Positions 27,661 to 52,304 of a DNA stretch of 64,000 bases are shown in pieces; the stretch's first letter is position 1, and each line of letters opens with the position of its first letter. Position numbers and translations under genes: made by a program. This stretch comes from Falciphora oryzae (lineage: Eukaryota; Ascomycota; Sordariomycetes; Magnaporthales; Magnaporthaceae): NCBI GenBank assembly GCA_000733355.1, contig JNVV01000014.1, forward strand, positions 563,384 through 627,383, written 5' to 3'. The notes below the pieces were generated by a model. The model saw nothing but the letters and a program-made list of their open reading frames with translations, ran no database searches and was not told the origin of the DNA.

Positions 27661-28313
27661 ATGCCTGTCACCACCAGCGCTCGCGCCACCCGGCAGCAGC
27701 AGGCCGCCCAGCAGCAGGAGGCCACCCAGCCCCAGCAGCCCACCCACAGTGTCAGGAACTGCAAAAGAAGACGGCGCCAGGAGAAGGCAAGACTTCGCAG
27801 GCAGCACGAGGCCGAGATAGCAGCGCTTCGCCAACAGCTCGACGAGGCCAAAAGCGAGATCGACGGCCAAAAGGTGGCGCTTGAGGCCAGAGATTAGACA
27901 TTGCTGACTAAGCCCGGGTCATCGAGGCCAAAGAAGCCGACCTTGCGGCCAAGGACACGGAGCTTGGCAACCTCCTGGCGGCCAAAGACCGCTTGGCCAG
28001 CCTCGAGTACTTCCTCCTGGTGCGCGACTGGCGCGCCCATCACGGCCCGCCCCAGCTCGAGAGGTTCCTCCTCGCTGACGAGTCGGGCCTCGACTGGGTC
28101 CGCATCCACCAAGCTTGCGATGAGGCCGTCGCTGGACTTGAGGAGCACGAACGGGCCGGCCGCATCACGGCGGATTCTCTCGCCAAGGCCCGACTCGCCA
28201 TCGAGACATGGAAGTCAAACACCGTCAGCGGATGGGATGACGGGACTCCTATATTGACCGCGTACGCGGCGATAGTCCTCGAGAAGGCCAGGGCCACGGC
28301 CGACAAGGCCTAG
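27661..28313 (+). CDS. Small coiled-coil protein with a frame change
   Basis: From ATG 27661 the frame gives an Ala/Gln-rich start, a basic KRRRRQEKARLRRQ segment and a heptad-like coiled coil (AALRQQLDEAKSEIDGQ), stopping at 27897. A second frame continues the coiled coil without a gap in sense (ARVIEAKEADLAAKDTELGN) and runs to a TAG at 28314 through RDWRAHHGPPQLERFLL and EKARATADKA. The join near 27880-27912 includes a GCTGACTAAG stretch resembling branch and acceptor, but no canonical intron restores the frame, so a one-base error or a mutation is likely. The basic region before a coiled coil is reminiscent of bZIP layout, but no bZIP signature is present. Function unknown. Confidence 0.55.
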
Positions 28314-31270: not shown

Positions 31271-31717
31271 GGCATCTAGAACCAAGCCTCTGTGCGTTAC
31301 CTCCCTTCTGCAGCGGAACCGGTTCAATTCCCTTATCGATTCCGTCTCTCCCGGCACTGCTGCTCCGTCGCCTGCCCCACGGCCCCATTGCCTGCCTGCC
31401 CACCGTTGCCCCTTTCCCCCTGACTCCTTTTCCTTCCAACACCAGCCCTATCTCAAGCATTTACTCTTATATACTTCTGCTACAGTGCGGGCTAACATTT
31501 GCATTTTGCTTCCAGATCCTCGACCGAACGATGTACGAGCCGAGCCATCCTCTGGTTTTTGGTGTGGAGACGGCGACTGGTAGCTAACACACAGGCTCTC
31601 CCGCTAGCTCCAGCAAAGTAGTCGGTACGTTCTACTTTCCCAGACCAGCTTTACTGTTAGAAGCGGGATGTACTGACAAATGGCTCCCGTTTTGTGCACC
31701 ATTCTCTGCTAGACACC
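31271..31717 (+). promoter_or_regulatory. 5' untranslated region with further small exons
   Basis: Splice signals continue upstream of the ATG. A GTACGT donor at about 31624 and a TACTGACA branch with CTGCTAG acceptor at 31712 bound a leader intron. A GCTAACATTTGC...TTCCAG acceptor lies near 31515 and a GTAGCTAAC...GCTAG pair near 31580-31606. The leader piece CTCCAGCAAAGTAGTCG is only about 17 nt. An upstream ATG at 31531 opens a frame of 18 codons ending TAA, a possible regulatory uORF. Confidence 0.45.
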
Positions 31718-32756
31718 ATGGGTTCTAACGTTAGTACTGCCTTCCCCTCCATCTACATCATTGCTCCCTCGAAGCCATGAAAAGTACTGACAGACCTCGT
31801 AGAAGAACCAAAAGAATGTGAGAAGAGCCAGCCCTTTTTTCTGTCATAGCCATGCAGGTCGTTTCAGTCACTCGTGCCGAGCCCCAATTTTGCCAGCCAT
31901 CGTCGCACCAGCCCTCGCGCAACAACGCATCCCACGCCACCATCCACGAGATTCTGCGCCACCCGCGATATGCGCCGCAAGAGCACAAGACGACCGGGAA
32001 TGCATGGTTGTAGTTGCCTGCAACGCGCCACGCAGCCCGATGGAGTCGCCAATCGTCGACAGCACTGCCATGCATTTGCGACCTGGCATCATGCCTCGCC
32101 TCCCGCGCGTTTGCATCTGGCGGCTGTGCCCCAGACCCAGTGTCGCTCAACAACTGCGCTCCTGGACAGCGCCATGGACCAGCCGTGCCTGTAAGGTGAC
32201 TAGAGACGTACTAATCAAACCTCTGCAGAACTCGCGCAAGGCCAGCGGCGGCGGCGGCGGAGGCGGCAGCCGCCGCAACTCGGTAAGTATTGCCAACCCT
32301 CCCACTTCTCCTTGCACTCCATCGCAGTCGGTGTGGTTGGCGAACGTCAGGAGTCGGTAAACTAACGTGACATCGTTAGAACACGAACCAGCTGGTAAGC
32401 AACGACAAGTCTTCGACACATCGCCATTAGTGACCCGGAAGGATCACTTTCGCCAGCACTTGTCCGCCTTGCCAAGTTCCAGCTAACGCAGTACCGCTTC
32501 CACCGGTTCCAGCCCAGGGCCAAGAACGTACGTATCTAATGCCATTAATGCTGTCCACTCTTTCTTCTGCCCACTTTCTCCGGTTTCAACGTTGTTCCTA
32601 GGTCTCCGACCGACACTCTCCTCACTTTACAGCCCAACACCGTACTGTCTGTCGTTGCTCTTTTTGGACTTGGTCCTCCCCTTGGACGACCAAGCCCTGC
32701 GCACATACCATGTTTAATGAAGCGGCACACTGACATTTACGGCTTGCATACAGAGC

Positions 32757-32791
<35 letters not shown>

Positions 32792-34608
32792 CGGCGGCGG
32801 TGTCAGTGCAGCCCCCTTTTTGACTCCAGAAATAATCGCTGGCTAGATTCCATGGAACAGCACAGACCGAACTCAATCCATTTATTTTAATACTAACAGC
32901 CGCTAACCTTGCAGAGCCGCATTGTTTCGACCGTGAGTAAACGTCCTTTGGACGTGATTAATAATGTTACTGACCTGGACCTTTTGCACACCTCCCTTTA
33001 GTCCGGTGACAAGACGCTGGTCGTGAGTAGCATGCTTCTAGCCCGGCTTGGGAAACGCGAGCCTCCCAACATGCTTTAGGGCTAACACCGCTTTATAGAA
33101 CGGCACTGATGACTCGGGCCCCGGCCCCTCCGGCTCCGCCGGCACCGTAAGTTCTACTTCTCTTCATCCACACCATCATTTTCCTCTGGACATCCGTTGG
33201 AGTACCGAAAAGGGATTGCTGACGCACCACTTACTGTCCATTTTTTAGAACAAGCGGAAGCTCGATGTAAGTGGTCTTCCTTGTGTTCCCCCTGTCCCCG
33301 TCCCTGTCTAACCAACCTTTGCTTGGCTCGACTAACATTTGAAATTATCCTCTAGGAGCTCGATGCAGAAGTGAGACGGACTCCATGCATCCTACTCCTT
33401 GACTCTTTTTGGAGGTTGGCTACTGACGCTGCTGGCTCGAAACAGTACTGGGACGGCAAGGCGTCGGTAAGTTCTAATTATTCAGATCCTCATCTACTTA
33501 TATACCACCATGAGATCTTGCGCTGACCTCTTTTATAGACCCACGATGGCATCATCGTGGTAAGTAGGCGCAGTTCGTCTGCCTGTGTCCAGAGACATCC
33601 ATGCCCTCGCCACTCGCCATCATTCCCCCCAGATCACAGCATTTGCTTATGCAGACCTGCTTGAATGGACGATGTATCTTCCGCATCCATATGCTGACAT
33701 ACTGGTGTAGGAGAAGGGCAAGGAGATCCTTGTAAGGAAGTTCACATCACCATTCCGCGGGGATAATACTGACACAGGTACATTTTTAGCGCCTGAAGGC
33801 CAAGATCAGGGTTAGTTTCCCATCTGTCGAGGCTCGGTTTAATCAAGACGAAGAAGCACTGACGATGTTTATATCTGATGTTGTAGAAGCTGGAGGCCGA
33901 GCAGGAAGTAAGTCCTTTTCATTTTTCATAATACGCAAATTAAATATAAGAACTGTAGCTGACATGATTTCACAATGGTTTAGGATTCGGCCGAATTTTC
34001 CATCGTAAGTTTTCCCTTTTACCATCAACATCGTGGACGTGCTCAAACTAACGACATTTTTCACAGAAGTACAAGGCCAAGGCGGACGTAAGAGGCCCTG
34101 GCAGAAGTGCGTGGTAAGCTGTTGTTAAAAGGAGCATTGCAATTTACTTTGATGATTTAGGGCATTCGCAAGGCGCGCGGCGGCGCCGGCGCGGTCCTCA
34201 AGGTAAGTGAGATAAATATGTTTCATGTTATCATGTTGCTCCCACTTACTGCGTTTTTTTCTCGCTAACATGGGAATCATGCCGCAGGAGGTCAAAGATC
34301 GAGTTCGCGTAAGTTAGCCTCACAATTGGTATTGGCGAACGATACTGTATACTAACTGTAAAATAGGCCAAAATGGAGCTCAAGAAGGAGGAGACAGACG
34401 ATCGGGCCGTCGAGGCCAAGATCAAGGAGGAGGAGGAGGAGGAGGACGCGCTGGGTCTGGCCCAGGACAAGAGCAAGGGCAAGGATGCCATCGTAAGCCT
34501 TTCCCTTTTCCCTTTTCCCTTTTCCCTTTTCCCTTTTCCCTTTTCCCTTTTCCCTTTTCCCTTCTCCCTTCTCCCTCACAATACAAGCTAACTACGATGC
34601 GAAAGTAA
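31718..34608 (+). CDS. Micro-exon gene: about 21 tiny phase-0 exons encoding a Lys/Glu-rich protein
   Basis: The coding text exists only as very short islands, each preceded by a branch site (CTAAC/CTGAC) plus AG and followed by a strong donor, usually GTAAGT. Exons: 31718-31729, 31803-31817, 32229-32282, 32380-32394, 32513-32527, 32754-32801, 32915-32932, 33001-33021, 33099-33146, 33249-33266, 33356-33370, 33446-33466, 33539-33559, 33711-33731, 33790-33810, 33887-33907, 33984-34004, 34067-34087, 34161-34202, 34288-34308, 34367-34492, and a last exon starting TAA at 34606. Every exon is a multiple of three and every intron is phase 0. Nine exons are exactly 21 nt, for example SGDKTLV, YWDGKAS, THDGIIV, EKGKEIL, RLKAKIR, KLEAEQE and KYKAKAD. 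The product is about 205 residues: a Gly- and Asn-rich start (a run of 12 Asn), a GPGPSGSAG linker, then charged helical text ending in a Glu-rich exon. There is no signal peptide; KNQKN, NKRKLD and similar patches could direct it to the nucleus. Uncertain points: a 9-nt exon at 32633-32641 may exist; the 410-nt second intron is open in phase 0; retention of the last intron would give a Phe/Pro-rich tail ending at 34591. Confidence 0.8.
32757..32792 (+). repeat. (AAC)12 microsatellite inside a coding micro-exon
   Basis: Twelve perfect AAC triplets code for twelve asparagines in the 48-nt exon 32754-32801. The length is likely to vary between strains. Confidence 0.95.
34496..34572 (+). repeat. 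(TTTTCCC)n tract in the last intron
   Basis: A seven-base unit is repeated about nine times just after the donor of the final intron of the micro-exon gene, forming an exceptionally long polypyrimidine stretch. Read through without splicing it would encode a repeating SLFPFPF peptide. Confidence 0.9.
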
Positions 34609-34735
34609 ATAAACACATCATTATGGACACCGGCAGTGGTATGGTGTGGGTGTGGGCGTGAGCACCATTTTTGTGGAAAAACAATGTAAATATCATTAAA
34701 ATCGGAACAAATACGGCAGAAACCTATTTTTACTT

Positions 34736-37076
34736 TCAGGCAATGGTAACGGTCTTGATCTCACCCAGCTCGTCGAACATAGCGAGGCCGTTGTGTGGGT
34801 AATCTGGCAAACCCGGAAAGAAAGCCCCTGCCCTGCAAAACTTGTCCGAGTTGGGAATTGAGAACAGAACCAGTCCGAAGGCCCCGGTAGGCTGCTGCCG
34901 GACCAAACCCGTCAGGCCGTCTCCTCCCTCCACCTTGCAGGTCCCGAGGAGTACCCAGGTGAATGAAGCGATTTCACACATCGAACACCACGGCTTGGTT
35001 GGTGAGTCCAGAATGTAGTAGAAGTCCAAGAAGTAACGGCCAAGGCATTTGCTCTTGTACGACAGCGTCCCTGCGAACTCGAGATCTATCCCTGTCTCGT
35101 CGATCTCTAGCTCTTCCGCATCCAGATTTGCCATATCTATGACGCGGCTTCTTATCTCCAGGCCCCAGTCGTTCTCGATATCGCCAAAGGGATTGCTACT
35201 CCCCGAAGGCTTGGTGTTTACGGCCAAAGCTTCATATGCTGGCGTGAAGTCGCTCAAGGGGACCTTTGATTCCCATCTTGAGCCGCGCCCGAGTTCGGCG
35301 AGCCTGTACATTTCCACTGGGTAGCTGATTGCTAGGCCGCTACCCAGTGGACTCCAGGAGGGCAGCGGACAGTTCCCAGCCCGCATGCCCCGAGTAGGGG
35401 CGACGCGCTGTCTGCTTGGTGGTTGTTCCGTTCGAAGATCGTAAGTCCACATGAGCCCCCTAAACAGATCCTTTTTCCACAGCCCGGCATGATAGTCGTC
35501 CTGGATCCACCCGTAGTAGTGTGAGGCCAAGCCTGAGATTGCTGGCAGGATGTCCTTGACTGTTTGGAAAGAGTCATGCCCGAGCCGTGAATAGCTTGTT
35601 AGGAGCTGCTTCCAGCTATTATAGGTCTCGTCCAAGTCTTCCGGCCTTTTCTGTAACAGCGCGAAGCTGTCCATTCTCTTTCGGGGCTCGGTACCCATAC
35701 TCTGAACCGAATCCGAGGAGTAGTAGTGGATGTTCGAGTTTCCGAACACAAGCTTTCGCGAAGCAGCAATGTTTTCCTGGAAGGTCCATCCGCGGCTGCT
35801 CCAGCGGCAGTGGATCACGTCTGCGTCCGGGTCGAAAAAGATGTCGTTGGGCTGCGAGGTCACGTATTTAAACTGCAAATAGAAGGACCCCGAGAGACCA
35901 GGCCGCCTGAAAGATGTGAAAGGCATTCGGATCCGGTGGCCGCGCTGCCGAAGGAAGCCCTCTCGGCACGAAGTCGACGAGGCGGCGCAGATGGTCACGG
36001 CCGCGTCGGCGTATAGCCGTGCTACACCAACGCATTGCCGTTGCCAGTCCGTGATGTCGTCCTGCAAAATGCAGACGGCATCGACCCAAAGATACGGGAT
36101 GTCTAGCATCCGAGTCACAGACACCGCGTCTCTCAGCACCTCGGTCATCTCATCTTTGGTAATGACATCTTGTCTTTGAGCAATGGTGGCCTTGGTCGTC
36201 CTGAGCTGTTGGTCTGCTTTCTCCTTTTTTCCCCAGCAATAACTGAGGGCTGCGTATCTGGGAGTTTTCCCGTCCTCGGGTCCAAACAACGAGGAATCGC
36301 CTGTGAGGACTAGGCGCGGATTCGGCGACTCGACACTGATTAGTCTCTCGGGTAAAAAGGAGCTGGCTCGGACTTCCTCCCGCTCTTTACTGTCCTCTTC
36401 GAAGATCTTGGATATCCACGCCACTCGGTCGCCCTGCTCATAGCTCTGGCTAGATGGAGCGCCTAGTCCAAGCCAAATATCTGATGGCTCCGAGCCTATA
36501 TGTGGATGTTAATAATGATAGGGGACGTAGGGGATCAAGATACGCACCTGTGAGGCCTTCTGCGAAGCAAGCGAATGTAATATTCGTCCTCTTATTGTGT
36601 TCGAAGCTCAACAGGATTTCCGCACCACGGAGACCGTGTCCTCTGTCCTCTCCTTCATATTGCGTTCCGTTTTTAAAGGAAAATCTCATGCGGAGGGAGA
36701 TTTTGAACTTCTTTCCCGGCTCAAACACCGCGGAACTATACACTCGCCGCACCTCGTCTTGGGTGTCTTCGCAAGAAATGATGGCATGCAAAAACGCGCA
36801 AAACTCGCAGCCCTGTTCTGAAGAAGCGGAGATACCGGGCAGGTCTGGGAATATGTCGTTTCTGAAGGTCTTTTCAGGCATGAAGCCATCAGGATATTGA
36901 TTCCATAGGCTACCGACTGTACATGTGCTTGCCGATCCGGAGCGAGTTCCCTTGGCCAGGGTCGAGTGGCCGGTGTTGTCCAGCGTCTCGTACAGTGTCG
37001 GCTGGTCATCCCGGAACAACGCTCCCTGGCGGCAAGGATCGCAAAGCTGCGCGATGGTGTCCAGCTGGGATTCCAT
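34736..37076 (-). CDS. HET-domain (heterokaryon incompatibility) protein
   Basis: Exon 1 (37076-36548) and exon 2 (36495-34736) join through a GTGCGT donor and a TATAG acceptor, giving 762 residues starting MESQLDTIAQLCDPC. The N-terminal 180 residues contain Cys pairs (CDPC, CEFC) often seen ahead of HET domains. The HET domain follows at about 240-400: YAALSYCWGK, then LRDAVSVTRMLDIPYLWVDA, VCILQDDITDWQRQ, YADAAVTICAASS and RGWTFQENIAASRKLVFG. The C-terminal 350 residues are variable. HET proteins act in the cytoplasm in nonself recognition and can trigger cell death on incompatible fusion. The gene starts only 90 bp from a hAT-type MITE, which may affect its promoter. Confidence 0.9.
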
Positions 37077-37158: not shown

Positions 37159-37668
37159 ATAAATTAGAGGCTTTATCCGGGCACTCCCCTATTTTGCAAT
37201 TGGCACTCAGTTTACTCCACTTTTGGCCTGTGCACCACCCGTGCGGCCCGGTTTCGCTGCTTACCATTTTTGCCCCGCAGTTAAAATTTGATGCCATTGG
37301 CCGCGCATTCGTGACAAAGCCACTAAGGCCTAGGCATTCAGCCACGGGATCCCCCAATTGACAGCCCCAACCTGCCCAAAAGTGCACGCAAAAAGTTGCA
37401 CGCAAAGAGCTGCACGCGCAGAGGTGCACGTGGAGAGGTGCACGCAGAAAGGTGCACGCAGAAAGGTGCATGCAGAAAGGGGCAAAGGCGCTTTGCAACT
37501 TCCTAAAAAAAAATTTACCTTTACACCTGTGCACCTTCGCACCTTTGCACTGCTGCCCATGTGCATTTGTGTGGGTGCGCCACAAAAAGTTGCATGGCGG
37601 CCGATATCGGGGCAGGGTGAGTGCCAATAGCAAAAAGGGGGAGTGCCCGGATAAAGCCTCATAAATTA
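37159..37668. mobile_element. Non-autonomous hAT-type element (494 bp) with 8-bp TSD
   Basis: The element (37167-37660) has 43-bp terminal inverted repeats beginning GAGGCTTTATCCGGGCACTC with three mismatches, and is flanked by a perfect direct repeat ATAAATTA (37159-37166 and 37661-37668). An 8-bp duplication is characteristic of hAT transposons. No transposase is encoded. The interior carries tandem copies of a TGCACGCAGAAAGG-type unit (about 37380-37475), pairing loosely with GTGCACC-type motifs on the other side (37525-37560), so much of it could fold back. Confidence 0.92.
37380..37475. repeat. Degenerate 11-14-bp tandem repeats inside the hAT element
   Basis: The motif GTGCACGCAGAAAG and variants (GTTGCACGCAAAGA, GGTGCACGTGGAGA) recur about seven times head to tail. 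Confidence 0.8.
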
Positions 37669-40279: not shown

Positions 40280-41580
40280 ATGCATCTCCTCCCTGCCCTC
40301 GCCCTTGCTGGGCTGGCCTCCGCTGTGCCCACAGTCGTCAATGACCCGAACGCTCTCCTGTACAGCTTGGCCCTATCCTTCGTCCTCTCCTGACAGATGA
40401 CAGCGCTCTGACTCACCCCTGGATACACAGCAAGCTGCGGCAGACGCAGGGCCTAAACGCGGCCATGGTTGCCGCGGGCCGCGAGTACGTCGGCACCTCC
40501 CTGACGGTCCGCGGCGACAACCAGGAGAACACCCTCATCCGCAACGAGTTCGGGTCCATAACGCCCGAGAACGCGATGAAGTGGGACGCCACGGAGCCCC
40601 AACAGGGTCGGTTCTCCTTCGGGGGCGCCGACCAGGTTGCCAACTACGCCAGGCAGAACCGCAAGCACCTCCGCTGCCACACTCTTGTCTGGTACAGCCA
40701 GCTGCCGCAGTGGGTCAACAACATCAACAACAACGCGACCCTGATGCAGGTCATGACCAACCACATCAACACCGTCATGGGCCGGTACAAGGGCCAGTGC
40801 AACCACTGGGATGTTGTGAACGAAGGTGAGTTTAAGGGAAGGTGGAAGATGGGCTGCTTACCCCGTTTATGGGCTCGATCCTAACCTGTTGCTTTCTGCT
40901 TTATCCGGCAGCCCTCAACGAGGACGGCACGCTGCGCAATAACGTCTTCCTCCGCGTCATCGGCAAGCAGTACATCCCGATCGCGTTCCGCATCGCGGCG
41001 CAGGCGGACCCGTCGGCCAAGCTGTACTACAACGACTACAACCTCGAGTACGGCGAGGCCAAGGCCAAGGGCGCGCAGCAGATCCTCAAGGACGTGCAGG
41101 CGTGGGGCGTCAAGATCGACGGCATCGGCCTGCAGGGCCACCTGGTGTCGGCGCCGACGGGGACCCAGTCAACCGTGACGCCGTCGCAGCAGGTGCTCGA
41201 GAAGACGCTGCGCCTGTACACGGACCTCGGCGTCGACGTCGCCTACACCGAGCTCGACATCCGCATGCCCATGCCCGCCAATGCCCAGAAGCTGCAGGCC
41301 CAGGCCGACGCGTACCAGCGCGTCGTGGCCAGCTGCATCGCCGTCGAGCGCTGCGTCGGCATCACCATCTGGGTGAGTGTTTTGTGGCTTGCTGCCGCGC
41401 CGCTCGAGTTTCTGTTTGCTGACTTGTTCTTGTTTTACCTGATTGTAGGGTGTGTCCGATCGTTACTCTTGGGTCCCTGGGACCTTTAACGGCGAAGGCG
41501 CGGCGCTGCTCTGGTCGGACAACTACCAGAAGAAGCCTGCGTACGACGGCTTCATCAAGGGTCTCTCCAGCTCGAGCTAA
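40280..41580 (+). CDS. Endo-1,4-beta-xylanase, GH10, secreted
   Basis: Four exons (40280-40359, 40431-40825, 40912-41372, 41449-41580) joined by GT-AG introns give 355 residues. The signal peptide is [17 protein letters not shown]. The family GH10 barrel is complete: [64 protein letters not shown] with the acid/base Glu, YTELDIRM with the nucleophile Glu, and a final [13 protein letters not shown]. There is no carbohydrate-binding module. The enzyme cleaves internal xylan bonds in plant cell walls. One intron interrupts directly after the catalytic acid/base Glu codon region. Upstream XYR1- and CreA-type motifs fit induction by xylan and glucose repression. Confidence 0.96.
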
Positions 41581-42510
41581 GCTTTTGGTTCTCGATATTG
41601 GTAGCTACAGTAGACATCGTCTTTTCCTGGAACGGCGGTACTGTGAATAAGAAATGGACCGCTTCCTTGGGAGCTTTCTGCGATGGCCAGGGATCAAAAT
41701 TTCGGTGACCCACGGGTCGAGCAGGGATGAAAGAACAGGATCCACAGTGACATCTGTGCTGCGTGTTTGATGGTTGTGTGACCCCTGGACAGACCAAGGG
41801 AGCAATGAGAGTTTCGGCGCGGTCAAGAAGATTATGAACTCTCATCTGCGCAGATGATATCCATCAACGGATTAAATATCTAGACATCATCGACACTTAC
41901 AATATGAAGTTCAGCAGCCTAGAGGCCATCCGCCATTCACTGTAGGATGTGGTCGGCGTCCAAAATGTAACAACGGGTCGGGAATTTTCTCTTACCTAAA
42001 GCGTAAAAACGTGTTCCATCCACCCCACATCATCCCGCCTACCGTCGGCTTTGTTGCCGGAGTCTCGGTTGCGTGTAGGGCTGGTGGTGGCGTGGTCCGC
42101 GGGGCAAATCCGCGATTCTGATTGCTCGCGGAACTCACTCCATTGATCGCCTCTTATTTTTTTCTCTCTGGGTGGCGGACACCGAACTAAAAGCTTGGTC
42201 GTTTCTCCGCTTACCACTTACCGCCTGATCGGAACTGTCGGATTCGGTCAGCTTGCTTTCTTGTCAAATCAGAGGCAACTCTGATCTCGACTCAAAGTCA
42301 GGTTATCTGATTCCCCTGCCTCGGCCCGGAAGCATAAGCTTTGGTCTCCCTGTGGTGACCGGCGCTTCCCTCCCTCTCGCCGATAGTGTTTACGCTTCCA
42401 TTTCTCCCACAACATCTCTTTGAGCCCGCCAGCTTCCTGCCGCAACGGTCTCGCAAATCTGGGTCTGACAAGCTATTACCTCTCCCGGGCTTGCGTCTTT
42501 CATCCCAAGG
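41581..42510. other. Intergenic region
   Basis: No gene is recognised between the xylanase stop and the cystathionine beta-synthase start. The T/C-rich 42360-42440 part is likely the leader of the latter. Confidence 0.4.
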
Positions 42511-45709: not shown

Positions 45710-46571
45710 GGCGGCGGCCGGTGGGGGGTTCGGTGGCGAAGTTGTCAAAGTCAACGGAGTAAGGTGTCGATGGCTGCGCTTCGAGGGATGCGCTGCGACA
45801 TGCAGCCCATAAAGCGCTCCTTGTGGAAAGCCGACAGTGGCTCTACTCGACGGCCAGCCTCGACTTTGTGTCCGGCCGACAGCGGTCTGGTTCTCGTGGG
45901 AGTTTGTAAGCCGCAGAGTCCAGCGCCCGAGCGATCCGACGATTTGTCTGCGCTGGCAATTACCAGCTCTGGCCCCACTGCCAGTCAAATCTCGATCCTG
46001 TAGCCCCACTTATTACCTGATGGGCGCGGGCGGTTTGGCCCAATGGAAACCGCTAATCCCGGCCTTGTCCAGGGGCCCAGGCTCCATTTCAGCACCCCTG
46101 TCGGTCCGCGTCAGCCTTGCCCCAGCGAACCCAGCCGGCTGCGCGTTGGCTAGCGCTGAAGGCGGGCAAGTGGGAATCAAATTAGATTTCCCCTTCCAGC
46201 TTGGCTCGACCTGGCCTAGACCCTGGAAACCAGCGCCTCGGTCTCGAGGATTTTTTTCGTCCTTTTCTTCCTCCCTCCATCTGTCTGGCTGTTTGAGACC
46301 AGCCCCTGGCGTCACTCTTTTCCAACCTCGACCGATCTCTACCTGTCGGCGGCCAACGAGCGAGATACAGAACTACCCGAAGGACTCGAGACTATCCGAC
46401 CCCGGCTGTTCCCGAGATCTGCCCACGTCAGCGAGAGCCAGAGCTCTGGGGCCGGGAGAACGAGGCGGCGGCAAGCCAGGACGATCTGGGTTGGCTGGGT
46501 TGGGGTCGACAGGCGACCTCGAGACGCGCGGCGGGATTGAAGGCGGACGGCAGCCCCCGACGGCGTCAACA
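45710..46571. promoter_or_regulatory. Shared divergent promoter of SRP102 and AKR1
   Basis: The 862-bp interval separates two secretory-pathway genes transcribed away from each other. The plus frame across much of it is open but has no conserved content, and is likely the AKR1 leader. Confidence 0.45.
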
Positions 46572-49105
46572 ATGGCGCACAACGGGCCGGGAAGCTCGGC
46601 GCCGGCGCAGCCCACGGTCAAGGCGGCGGCGGCGGCGCCCAAGCTGAACAACGAGATGGAGATGGGCACGCTGGCGAGCGACAAGCCGGCCGAGAACGAC
46701 ATCATGCAGGTGGCGCGCGTGGGCGACATCGTGGCCATGGAGAAGCTGTTCGAGACGGGCGACTACGACGCGACGTACTGCGACGACGAGGGCATCACGC
46801 CGCTGCACTGGGCGGCCATCAACAACCAGTACGCCATGTGCAAGTTCCTCATCGACAAGGGCGCGCCCATCAACAAGAAGGGCGGCGACTCGGTGGCCAC
46901 GCCGCTGCAGTGGGCCGCCCAGCGCTGCCACTACTACACCGTCCACCTGCTGCTGCAGCACGGCGCAGACCCGCTCGCTACCGACGCGCAGGGCTACAAC
47001 ACGCTGCACATCAGCACCTTCAACGGCAACGTGCTGCTGCTCGTCCTGCTGCTGCACTCGGGCATCCCCGTCGACGTCGCCGACGCCTTCGGCCACACCG
47101 GCCTCATGTGGTCCGCCTACAAGGGCTTCCCCGCCTGCGTCGACCTGTTCCTGCGCTGGGGCGCCTCGGTCCACGCCGTCGACGAGCAGGGCTTCACCGC
47201 CCTGCACTGGGCCCTGGTCAAGGGCTCGCCCGGCTGCGTCCAGAAGATGGTCGAGTACGGCGCCGACCGCTTCGCCAAGACAAACACCGGCAAGACCCCC
47301 GCCATCACCGCCCAGGAGCTCAACACCATCGCCGCCTGGAACCGCGCCCTGCGCGAGTGCGGCTACGACGAGGACGGCAACGCCGTCCAGCCCACCTGGC
47401 CCGGCGCCTCGTACCTGCTCAAGGACCGCCGCGGCTTCGTCGGCAAGTTCTTGTTCCTGTGGCCCTTTGTGCTCGTCTGGGGCCTCCTCAACATACTCGC
47501 CGCCTTCCCTATATACCTAGGAATCCCCCTAATGCTGCTCGCCGGCTTCAGTCTGCAGTGGGTTGCCCAGAATGTGTTGCAGTATGCGCCCTCGGACATG
47601 AGGTCGCTCCAAAGAACGGTATGTGGCAATGGATGTGATCTCTGGTTGTGTTTGGCTGGCAATGTGTTTGCGTCGTTGACTTGTCCGAACCACCGCTAAT
47701 CCTGTCTCGTTATGTTCGCTCTCGCAGCCCTGGCTGGCCGGTATCTTTGCCGCCTCCGTTTTCTGGGTCGGAATGAATTGGCTTTTTACGGTTATGCCGG
47801 CCACCACGCTCTACGCCGAGGCCGATGCGACCCACTACCTGCTGAACATGATCTTTGCTGTCTTCATCGGGCTCATCGCATACTTTTATGGGACTTGTAT
47901 GCTCTTTGACCCGGGCTTCGTGCCCAAGATGAACGGCAGGGCTGAGCAGAAGGCCGTGATCGACGAGCTGATCGGCCTCTGGAAGTTCGACGAGGCCAAC
48001 TTCTGCGTCCCCTGCATGATCCGCACGCCGTTGCGAAGCAAGCACTGCAAGAGGTGTAACCGTTGCGTAGCAAAGCATGATCAGTGAGTTCACGCCCGGA
48101 GTCTTCGCTGCACCCCTGAGTTTTGCATACTAACAAGAGTCCTCTCCTCCCAGCCACTGCCCGTGGGTTAATAACTGCGTGGGCAGCAATAATCATCGCC
48201 AGTTCTTCTTGTACATCATCACCCTGACAATCGGAATTTTGACATATGATTGGATCCTATACTACTGTAGGCTCATTCTCTCTCCCCCGGCGGGGCCTCC
48301 CAACTTCCCAGAATGCCGCTGACTGACCTCTTCTTTCTCCACAGACCTCCCCAACATCTCCAAGAACGCCTCGGAGGAGTGCAACATACTAGCCCCTTCG
48401 ATCTGCAAGATCATCAACGCCGACGGCTACTCGCTTCTGGCCGGTGTCTGGGCCTCGTTGCAGCTCGTATGGGTCTCGATGCTCATGTTTGTCCAGTTCA
48501 TCCAAGTAGCACGCGCCATGACAACGTACGAGAACATGTTCGGCATCGACAGCCGCATCGGCGCCGCCGCCCTCAACTCAGCCTTCACCTCCACCGGCAC
48601 CCCGCTGAACCCAGACACAGCGGGGGGCGCCGGCGGAGCAGTTCCGCCCAGCGGCTCCATGGGCCAGCCCGAGGAGGCCGCCGCAGGAGGACACAGTCAC
48701 AGTCACGGCCACGGCCACGGCCACGGCCACAAGCACGGCGGCGGCTTCCTCAAGCAGTGGGGACGCCTCCTGGGCGTCGACGCCTTCATTGAGACGGCGA
48801 CGGGCCGCGGCGCGGCGGCGGGCGGCAACAACCGGCGCAAGCGCAAGCGGAACCCATACTCGCACGGCTGCGTCGCCAACTGCCGCGACTTCTGGTGCGA
48901 CCCGGCCCCGGTCTTTGGCCGCCGCGAGACGGGCGCGGGCATGCTGGGCGGCGAGGCGGTCAACTGGACCGAGGTCTACGAGAGCCCCGCCGGCATGGGC
49001 ATCGGCGGCGGCGCCGCGAGGAGGAGCGGCGGCGGCGCCGCGAGGAGGAGCGGCGCGTCGCGCAGGGGAGGGTACGAGGCCGTGGCCGTGGACGAGGTGG
49101 TATGA
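46572..49105 (+). CDS. AKR1: Ankyrin-repeat DHHC palmitoyltransferase Akr1
   Basis: Exons 46572-47618, 47728-48083, 48154-48266 and 48345-49105 encode 758 residues. The N-terminal half holds five to six ankyrin repeats ([92 protein letters not shown]). Membrane spans follow ([40 protein letters not shown]), then the Cys-rich catalytic domain ending in [20 protein letters not shown]; the DHHC is completed across the intron at 48084. Akr1 S-acylates proteins at the Golgi, including vacuole and mating-pathway proteins in yeast. The C-terminus has an unusual run of alternating His and Gly/Ser (about 48691-48738). The ATG at 46572 starts the conserved part; upstream open sequence is leader. Confidence 0.95.
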
Positions 49106-50303: not shown

Positions 50304-52304
50304 ATGGCACCGTTGTCTTCTTCGTTCGACAAAGTAGCTGCGACGATGACCGACGATAAGGGCCTATCGCTGTTTGAGCTCAGCCGGCGCCACAAGACGT
50401 CCATCGTCTCACAACTCGTCGAGATAGGCAGCGAGCGCAACCAGCAAATCCTAGGCAAATATCGCCCCTATATCAGCAACCTCCCATGCCTCCGGCCGGA
50501 AGGCACGTTGCTGCGCCGCACGTCGATCAACGCCTTCCGCGAGCGGAATTACGTTGCGCTATCGTATACCTGGGCTCCTTCACTGCACGAAGACCGACAA
50601 TCCGGGCAGTACCGTGTTGAAAACTGGGATCGCAGCAACTCCGAACCCGGACCCTCATCCGTCCGGAACTGCGTCCTTGAACGCGTTCTCGGCTACATGC
50701 GCTCCGCGCGCGTCGACTTCCTCTGGATCGATGCTCACTGCATTCACCAAGACTCGTGCAGCGTCGACGCTTGTACCCACCCCAAATGCACACAGAAACG
50801 CCACGCGCTACAGGCCATGGACCTCGTTTACCAGCTCAGCGACCATCCCGTGGCGCTACTGGCCCGGCCGCTCAATACGGTATCGGAGTTGCGTCTCCTC
50901 GCTCGGATCCTTTTAGGGGATCTCGTCAACGGCGATTCTAACTCTCGGCTCCTGGTATCCACTACGATTCCCAAGGCGAGTGAGGCGTTATCATTGCTCT
51001 ACGAAATCACGCATGATGCCTGGTGGACGCGCGCATGGACATTCCAGGAAAACTATCGTGGCGGAGAGCGAATGCGGCTGTTGATCCGCCATGATCCGTC
51101 TCTGGAACAGCAGAAGCAAACGCTGCAGAAGCAAATGCAGCAGAACCACATGCTCGGCGCGTTAATACCCGGCGAACTTTGCATATCGTCCACCACCTTT
51201 TTTAAAGAGGCAACACGGCTATGCCTGGCGCTTCGCGGGGTGGAAGGGCACCTGGAAACCAACCAGGTGCAGAAAATCGGGGGTGTGCTCCAAGCCGCCG
51301 GCAGATATGCGCTCATGCTGCCCGGGTCGCACTCAATGACTCCGAGGGTGGTCGCCGACATCGAATCTCGCGCTTTGGGAAAGCTGTGGGACCGGCTCGC
51401 TATCGTCGCCAACTGCTGTCGATACCCAGTGCGACTCAACGACGAAACACTCAGCCGGCAGGATCGTAGCCTCAGTTTATCAGTACTGGCAATGTGCCTA
51501 CTCAACGGCGAAATCCTCGACAACGGCAACGAAGAAACAAAGTCGGCGGCCGAGTTGACGGCATCGGAATTCCTTGAAGGGCTTATGTTCCGGAGATTCA
51601 AATCGCCCGAAGAGGACGCCAGGCAGCTGACGTTTAACAAAGGCTGCCGGCTGAGGGACGTGAAATTAACTGCGGGCGGCATCACGGCAAAAGGCCACCT
51701 GTGGAAGCTGGGTCGAATCGTCGACACTGCGGATTTCTCGTCTCAGTTGCCGTTTATCGACAACCCAAAGGGTCGTCTAGAACTGGGCCAGCGGGAAAGG
51801 CTACTGCAGTTGGTGCGTTACTTGCAGTGCGAAGGCTACAAACCCCTTGCGGACGAAATCGAAGACTACCTCGCGACAGACGCCGAGAGAGCCGAGGAGG
51901 ATTATCAGCCATTCACTGATTGCCATTTCCGTCGCATGGCCGGCGAGCTGGCAACAGCGATTCGGGCTCGTCGGAAATTGGGGTTAGGGAGCATTTGGGA
52001 CCCGGAGGGGGGGCGGGAGCCCTACTGCGCCGTCTTTATCTGGCCAGACGAGGGCGCTAACGGACCGCCCCCGGCTTTCGTTTTCACGTCATTGGCACAG
52101 GCTGATGGAGGCTCGCGAACGTTTTATGACAATGGTATCGACTGCTACACCTCGCTGACGGTTGATATTGAAAGGCGCTCAGGTGATGGCGGCATACCGC
52201 AACTACGCATCCGTGACTGGCTGCTCGGCATGTGCTTCTTTTATGGGCGTCCGCTCAGAAATGTGATATTTCCTTGGCCGAAAGCGATACAGATAGCTAG
52301 CTAA
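50304..52304 (+). CDS. HET-domain protein (intronless)
   Basis: A 666-residue frame beginning MAPLSSSFDKVAATMTDDKG immediately after the gap; the second Met (MTDDKGLSLF) is an alternative start. The HET signature spans about residues 80-260: NYVALSYTWAPS, CVLERVLGYMRSARVDFLWI, DAHCIHQD with an inserted Cys/His loop (CSVDACTHPKCTQKRH), MDLVYQLSDHPVALLA and WWTRAWTFQENYRGGERM. The remaining 400 residues are variable as usual. It probably functions in nonself recognition or stress-related cell death. It differs clearly from the HET gene at 34.7-37.1 kb, so the two are not a recent duplication. Confidence 0.9.
   Translation: MAPLSSSFDKVAATMTDDKGLSLFELSRRHKTSIVSQLVEIGSERNQQILGKYRPYISNLPCLRPEGTLLRRTSINAFRERNYVALSYTWAPSLHEDRQSGQYRVENWDRSNSEPGPSSVRNCVLERVLGYMRSARVDFLWIDAHCIHQDSCSVDACTHPKCTQKRHALQAMDLVYQLSDHPVALLARPLNTVSELRLLARILLGDLVNGDSNSRLLVSTTIPKASEALSLLYEITHDAWWTRAWTFQENYRGGERMRLLIRHDPSLEQQKQTLQKQMQQNHMLGALIPGELCISSTTFFKEATRLCLALRGVEGHLETNQVQKIGGVLQAAGRYALMLPGSHSMTPRVVADIESRALGKLWDRLAIVANCCRYPVRLNDETLSRQDRSLSLSVLAMCLLNGEILDNGNEETKSAAELTASEFLEGLMFRRFKSPEEDARQLTFNKGCRLRDVKLTAGGITAKGHLWKLGRIVDTADFSSQLPFIDNPKGRLELGQRERLLQLVRYLQCEGYKPLADEIEDYLATDAERAEEDYQPFTDCHFRRMAGELATAIRARRKLGLGSIWDPEGGREPYCAVFIWPDEGANGPPPAFVFTSLAQADGGSRTFYDNGIDCYTSLTVDIERRSGDGGIPQLRIRDWLLGMCFFYGRPLRNVIFPWPKAIQIAS

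Follow-up and report, generated by a model that had tools for sequence, protein, structure and literature searches.

A Falciphora oryzae locus with the anatomy of a gene built from phase-0 micro-exons

Introduction

Can a gene of a filamentous ascomycete be composed almost entirely of exons that encode a handful of residues each, and if so, how would its transcript be spliced and what kind of protein would it specify? The question is raised by a locus on the forward strand of Falciphora oryzae DNA (positions 31718–34608 of the window, the whole stretch of 64,000 nucleotides that was analysed), where a sequence-only reading had described a chain of very short coding islands joined in a single phase. 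Genes assembled from numerous short exons in a single phase are found in schistosomes and aphids, where the encoded proteins are variable or evolve rapidly and act on a host. Here, we describe the anatomy of the fungal locus, its excess over chance, the predicted properties of its product and the explanations that could account for its organization.

Results

Exon-intron organization of the locus

The predicted gene model contains 22 coding exons followed by an exon that holds only the stop codon. In order, the coding exons measure 12, 15, 54, 15, 15, 9, 48, 18, 21, 48, 18, 15, 21, 21, 21, 21, 21, 21, 21, 42, 21 and 126 nt, so that 21 of the 22 fall between 9 and 54 nt and 17 between 9 and 21 nt, the commonest sizes being 21 nt (n = 9) and 15 nt (n = 4). 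All 22 lengths are divisible by three and all joins are in phase 0. Joined from the ATG at 31718, the exons form one open frame of 208 codons leading to a TAA at 34606–34608. With 627 of 2891 nt being exonic, introns account for 78 percent of the gene, in agreement with the nearly 80 percent given in the sequence-only reading, whose counts of nine 21-nt and four 15-nt islands, all divisible by three, recur in the 22-exon model. Its proposal of about 21 micro-exons of 12–54 nt stands as to the number, the range now being 9–54 nt and the coding exons numbering 22, with exon 7 corrected to 48 nt (donor GTCAGT) and the last coding exon, at 126 nt, no longer counted as a micro-exon.

The introns begin with GT in 22 of 22 cases, with G at position +5 in 21, and end in YAG in 21 cases and in AAG in intron 22. 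A branch consensus (CT[AG]A[CT]) is located within the last 45 nt of 20 of the 22. The features of U2-type introns, GT-AG ends and a CTRAY branch site, are thus found at 22/22 donors, 22/22 acceptors and 20/22 branch positions, which largely upholds the earlier claim of good GT-AG signals and qualifies that of branch sites, exon 6 in addition having a weak donor. Apart from intron 2 (411 nt), the introns measure 58–151 nt, with an overall median of 80.5 nt, and their G+C content is 0.49. In three genomes of Magnaporthaceae, PMC4683626 gives a median exon length of 370–412 bp, a median intron length of 87–88 bp and 2.7–2.8 exons per transcript. The introns of the locus are therefore ordinary in size for this family, whereas the exons are not.

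Upstream of the start codon, weak candidates for exons of the 5′ UTR are located at 31280–31291 (12 nt, a branch-acceptor-donor match), at 31516–31579 (branch and CAG acceptor, with several candidate donors) and at 31595–31624 (30 nt, with branch, CAG acceptor and a GTACGT donor). Coding exon 1 (MGSN, 31718–31729, ATG context ACACCATGG) probably starts as an exon at 31713, within the UTR. Together with exon 2 (KNQKN, 31803–31817), exon 5 (PRAKN, 32513–32527), exon 6 (PNT, 32633–32641) and exon 16 (RLKAKIR, 33790–33810), it is defined by the joined model, as is exon 22 (34367–34492), which encodes a Lys/Glu-rich tail. The 9-nt exon 6 is doubtful, its donor GTACTG being weak and the preceding intron being devoid of a branch consensus.

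For the other exons, the joined model coincides with one or both of the scans described below. The island scan recovers exon 3 (NSRKASGGGGGGGSRRNS, 32229–32282), exon 4 (NTNQL, 32380–32394), exon 12 (ELDAE, 33356–33370) and exon 13 (YWDGKAS, 33446–33466), and the chain scan exon 7 (poly-Asn followed by GGG, 32754–32801) and exon 20 (GIRKARGGAGAVLK, 34161–34202), the latter preceded by an intron without branch consensus. Both scans identify exon 8 (SRIVST, 32915–32932), exon 9 (SGDKTLV, 33002–33022), exon 10 (NGTDDSGPGPSGSAGT, 33099–33146), exon 11 (NKRKLD, 33249–33266), exon 14 (THDGIIV, 33539–33559), exon 15 (EKGKEIL, 33711–33731), exon 17 (KLEAEQE, 33887–33907), exon 18 (DSAEFSI, 33984–34004), exon 19 (KYKAKAD, 34067–34087) and exon 21 (EVKDRVR, 34288–34308).

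Two introns deserve separate consideration. Intron 2 (31818–32228) is by far the longest. Its length is a multiple of three and no stop interrupts the frame, and its retention would add 137 residues. An open frame of this kind has a chance probability of 0.017 in shuffled sequence. Its G+C content is nevertheless flat across codon positions (0.63/0.60/0.58), and we have for this reason rejected it as a hidden coding exon. It finds no second copy in the fungus's own genome. At the other end, the AAG acceptor of intron 22, the sole non-YAG acceptor, renders the 3′ end with the stop at 34606 the least certain part of the model, and the earlier claim of a single frame up to this TAA holds for the 208 open codons, the stop itself being less certain. 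If intron 22 were read through, the protein would gain 32 residues up to the next stop. Alternatively, use of the CAG acceptor that ends at 34636 would open another short frame. Intron 22 contains tandem CCCTTTT-like units (34500–34575), and read-through would yield a Phe-Pro-rich tail.

Excess over chance and coding signature

We searched for stretches of 9–60 nt preceded by a branch site with YAG acceptor and followed by a GTRAG donor. This island scan finds 15 islands in the gene region, 14 of them divisible by three and identical to model exons, the remaining 8 of the 22 exons being supported by reading by eye and by the coding signature. In 200 dinucleotide shuffles of the region, the mean number of islands is 0.36 and the maximum 5. 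On the gene strand, the remainder of the window contains three islands. The minus strand contains four over its whole length, none of them in the gene region. Among 22 loci elsewhere in the genome (413,188 strand-bases), the scan identifies 13 islands, with length remainders of 0, 1 and 2 in 4, 3 and 6 cases, and on no strand are two of them found within 2.9 kb of each other.

A chain scan, in which consensus weights were set by hand and frame played no part, assigns the region a score of 93.3 with 13 exons, 12 of which are exact model exons and multiples of three, whereas the thirteenth (33415–33466, 52 nt) uses an alternative acceptor before exon 13. The scan overlooked 9 of the 21 micro-exons. 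Within the window, the scan otherwise reaches 14.2 (5 exons) on the opposite strand and 8.7 along the remainder of the gene strand, and on both strands of 26 other loci (246,594 bases) the top score is 7.7 with at most two exons. As these 26 loci represent about 0.5 percent of the genome, the result is still compatible with many such genes elsewhere.

The phase of the exons is manifested in their composition. When codon positions are counted anew from the start of every exon, the G+C content by position is 0.53/0.45/0.85 in the first 21 exons (165 codons, with exon 7 taken as 45 nt) and 0.52/0.34/0.79 in the 17 exons of up to 21 nt, the third position being strictly the richest in 16 of 21 exons. 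This signature is also evidence for the phase that does not depend on stop codons. In our judgement, which is not a computed value, the micro-exon gene is very probably real, and its excess of islands is far beyond chance.

Properties of the predicted protein

The predicted product of 208 residues contains 40 basic (Lys and Arg) and 34 acidic (Asp and Glu) residues, which bears out the proposed charged character of the protein, in addition to 23 Asn, 26 Gly and no Cys. Residues 1–32, read by eye, contain neither a hydrophobic run nor a signal peptide. Lacking a hydrophobic N-terminus, the protein would probably not follow the classical secretory route and is probably an intracellular charged protein. 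Its MGSNKN start presumably fits the loose pattern of N-myristoylation, which we take as a lead only.

In the exons encoding seven residues, hydrophobicity is highest at positions 2 and 6. Compared to shuffles within exons, this positional preference gives p = 0.0065 when the nine exons of 21 nt are taken and p = 0.003 for eleven heptads, with the 42-nt exon counted as two, where the best pair of positions was selected inside the statistic and likewise in the shuffles. Hydrophobic periodicity over the whole middle of 102 residues is not significant (p = 0.23), which weakens the heptad reading, and the correspondence of one exon to one heptad is suggestive only. Aligned in register, the nine 21-nt exons show no more similarity than shuffled codons do (p = 0.20), and a tandem duplication of exons has thus left no clear trace.

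Search for copies and relatives

The fungus's own genome was searched in 50.2 Mb on 123 contigs, of which C14 contains the window. A DNA search with the gene including its introns returned only the gene itself among the best candidates scored, and so did a protein search at E < 0.1, with two further weak matches of low identity at E 0.3 and 0.57. With only the best candidates being scored, diverged copies could have been overlooked. In the protein database, none of 475 candidates scored with a 207-residue product reached E 1 and none of 276 scored with residues 84–207 reached E 10. As a control, a search with the HET protein encoded next to the locus retrieved 735 matches at E 1e-10 among 7995 candidates scored. 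The best, from Gaeumannomyces hyphopodioides, was 80 percent identical, and the next, from Xylaria and other Sordariomycetes, at most 49 percent. The control thus demonstrates that relatives of the source fungus are present in the database, and by these identities the fungus probably belongs in or near the Magnaporthaceae. Among the six Pfam families listed, all under their cut-off, the best E is 0.06, and the PDB contains weak matches alone, the best being apolipoprotein A-I (E 0.31). The absence of relatives may reflect gene finders that overlook such exons, in which case unannotated orthologues would have been missed.

Genomic neighbourhood

The HET-domain (heterokaryon incompatibility) gene used as control (34736–36424, minus strand) is located directly downstream of the micro-exon gene in convergent orientation, and a second HET-domain gene is found at 50304–52304 on the plus strand. 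Ankyrin repeats are encoded at 45837–47699 (+). A GH10 xylanase-like gene extends over 40281–41585 (+), as judged from a Pfam match of the open frame 40842–41489, its limits having been set by eye. At 27662–28312 (+), a Gln/Arg-rich, coiled-coil-like start is interrupted by six stops in one frame, and this stretch may have decayed or may contain introns. The element at 37167–37660 consists of 62-nt inverted ends (81 percent complementary) flanking a tandem array with a period of 14 nt. It matches 88 genome pieces, its own included, the best other copies being 100, 96 and 91 percent identical, and it is classed as a recently multiplied MITE-like family.

Splicing of the predicted transcript

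What is plain at this locus is its anatomy, the excess over chance and the coding signature, in a gene that has no relatives in the databases searched. We regard it as moderately likely that these features are best explained by a protein gene, so far single-copy, whose product of 208 residues is spread over 22 phase-0 exons, most of them tiny. Its introns would be removed by the ordinary U2 spliceosome. Being short, with 21 of 22 measuring 58–151 nt, a size recognized as a unit, they suggest a process of intron definition. Neighbouring introns would probably be excised stepwise and not simultaneously, because complexes assembled on the introns flanking one of the 17 exons of 9–21 nt could hardly sit side by side. 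The main mRNA probably includes all exons, and the resulting protein would probably begin with a flexible head rich in Asn and Gly, continue with a helical middle whose 7-residue exons roughly act as heptad modules, and end in a charged tail. The uniform phase probably indicates that the gene arose from, or was selected for, exchangeable modules that keep the frame, so that the loss or skipping of an exon would shorten the protein without breaking it.

The retention of single introns has less benign consequences. A stop is encountered inside the intron in 16 of 22 cases (for intron 22 with a lengthened tail as the only effect) and a frameshift results in four, of which three run through the remaining joined exons without encountering a stop, whereas the frame stays open for introns 2 and 12. 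Frame-safe skipping and mostly destructive retention both fit a modular gene and neither proves a choice of modules.

The same modularity could serve to generate isoforms, if frequent exon skipping gave rise to many variants of length and sequence as in the micro-exon genes of schistosomes. As had been claimed from the uniform phase, skipping is indeed frame-safe for each of the 22 exons, all multiples of three in phase 0, and alternative splicing of comparable exons is described for schistosomes (PMC10526429) and for exons of a shared phase close to the 5′ end of troponin T (PMC2447309). Most splice sites of the locus are, however, near consensus, as fits constitutive use, and PMC8942408 describes exon skipping as not frequent in Magnaporthe oryzae. 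As these two observations favour a mainly constitutive product, we consider frequent skipping rather unlikely, even if it is open to the gene at every exon.

It is also conceivable that the 22 introns act as a gate for splicing capacity, with most failures being destructive and the output depending steeply on the efficiency of the spliceosome. Retention of single introns breaks the frame or alters the end of the protein in 20 of 22 cases, and an efficiency per intron of 0.98 would leave a fraction of 0.64 of full mRNA compared to 0.10 at an efficiency of 0.90. Yet this is arithmetic that holds for any intron-rich gene and it does not account for the uniform phase, which makes such a gate very unlikely in our view.

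Even less probable is the invasion and splitting of an ordinary gene by introner-like elements. Such elements are known in Pezizomycotina (PMC9860276 and PMC4457414), and 20 of the 22 intron cores resemble one another on average slightly more than shuffled sequences do (mean similarity 11.48 compared to 11.25 in 40 shuffles, sd 0.15). The best pair of introns, however, scores 24, with a mean of 20.8 and a maximum of 25 in shuffles, neither the gene with its introns nor intron 2 has another match in the genome, and a uniform phase would not be expected unless insertion was aware of the frame. The hallmarks of the group, similar introns present in multiple genomic copies, are thus not found. Finally, we give almost no credence to a chance pattern or misreading without an underlying gene, for although the islands were originally picked by eye and chosen by hand, and 8 of 22 exons are outside the recovery of the island scan, scans without a frame rule find most exons and nothing comparable elsewhere, and positional G+C carries the signature of coding sequence.

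Discussion

The locus that we favour as a protein gene with a mainly constitutive product is a fungal parallel to the micro-exon genes of schistosomes and the bicycle genes of aphids, and a member of neither. As described in PMC10526429, schistosome micro-exon genes share with it many very short exons that are mostly multiples of three, 15 bp being the commonest size there. In both, exons can be skipped in frame and the coding sequence is mostly contained in short exons divisible by three. The schistosome genes differ in forming a superfamily of secreted proteins with a signal peptide and in introns of up to about 5 kb, compared to a single copy found, no hydrophobic N-terminus and introns of 58–411 nt in the fungus. 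The likeness is one of architecture only, as previously proposed, with the short exons present and the signal peptide absent. According to PMC9168663, bicycle genes of aphids contain about 17 exons on average, with unusually small internal exons of nearly uniform phase, and the fungal gene similarly has 20 internal exons of 9–54 nt before its last coding exon. Bicycle exons are mostly in phase 2, whereas all exons are in phase 0 here, and the aphid proteins are putative gall effectors belonging to one family.

In TNNT3, the gene of fast skeletal troponin T, the alternative exons are very short. PMC2447309 describes consecutive, alternatively spliced exons that belong to one phase class and an exon-encoded heptad repeat domain, both reminiscent of our locus. 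TNNT3 is, in contrast, a vertebrate muscle gene, and a relation in sequence was sought by Pfam and PDB searches only. Among filamentous ascomycetes, Xlr2 of Trichoderma virens contains a microexon, which is described as functional in PMC11121469, where earlier single fungal microexons are cited. Xlr2 differs in that it encodes a zinc-cluster transcription factor with a single regulated microexon, and it is not a gene of micro-exons. A fungal gene built of many micro-exons was not found among the matches listed in the open-licence literature, in line with the earlier statement that no such fungal family has been described.

If exon choice were nevertheless exercised, the locus would be a combinatorial micro-exon gene, the first such in fungi, with exons serving as in-frame cassettes, several of them comprising one coiled-coil heptad each, and with the selection of exons tuning the length and surface of a helix in register. 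We consider this broader proposal, which includes unannotated kin that may hide in other fungi because such exons are invisible to gene finders, as unlikely. An ascomycete case, with short introns and a single copy found, would show that the architecture has originated independently, outside the families of schistosomes and aphids, and it would test intron definition against exons of 9–21 nt. It would also serve as a warning that annotations of fungal genomes may miss a class of genes.
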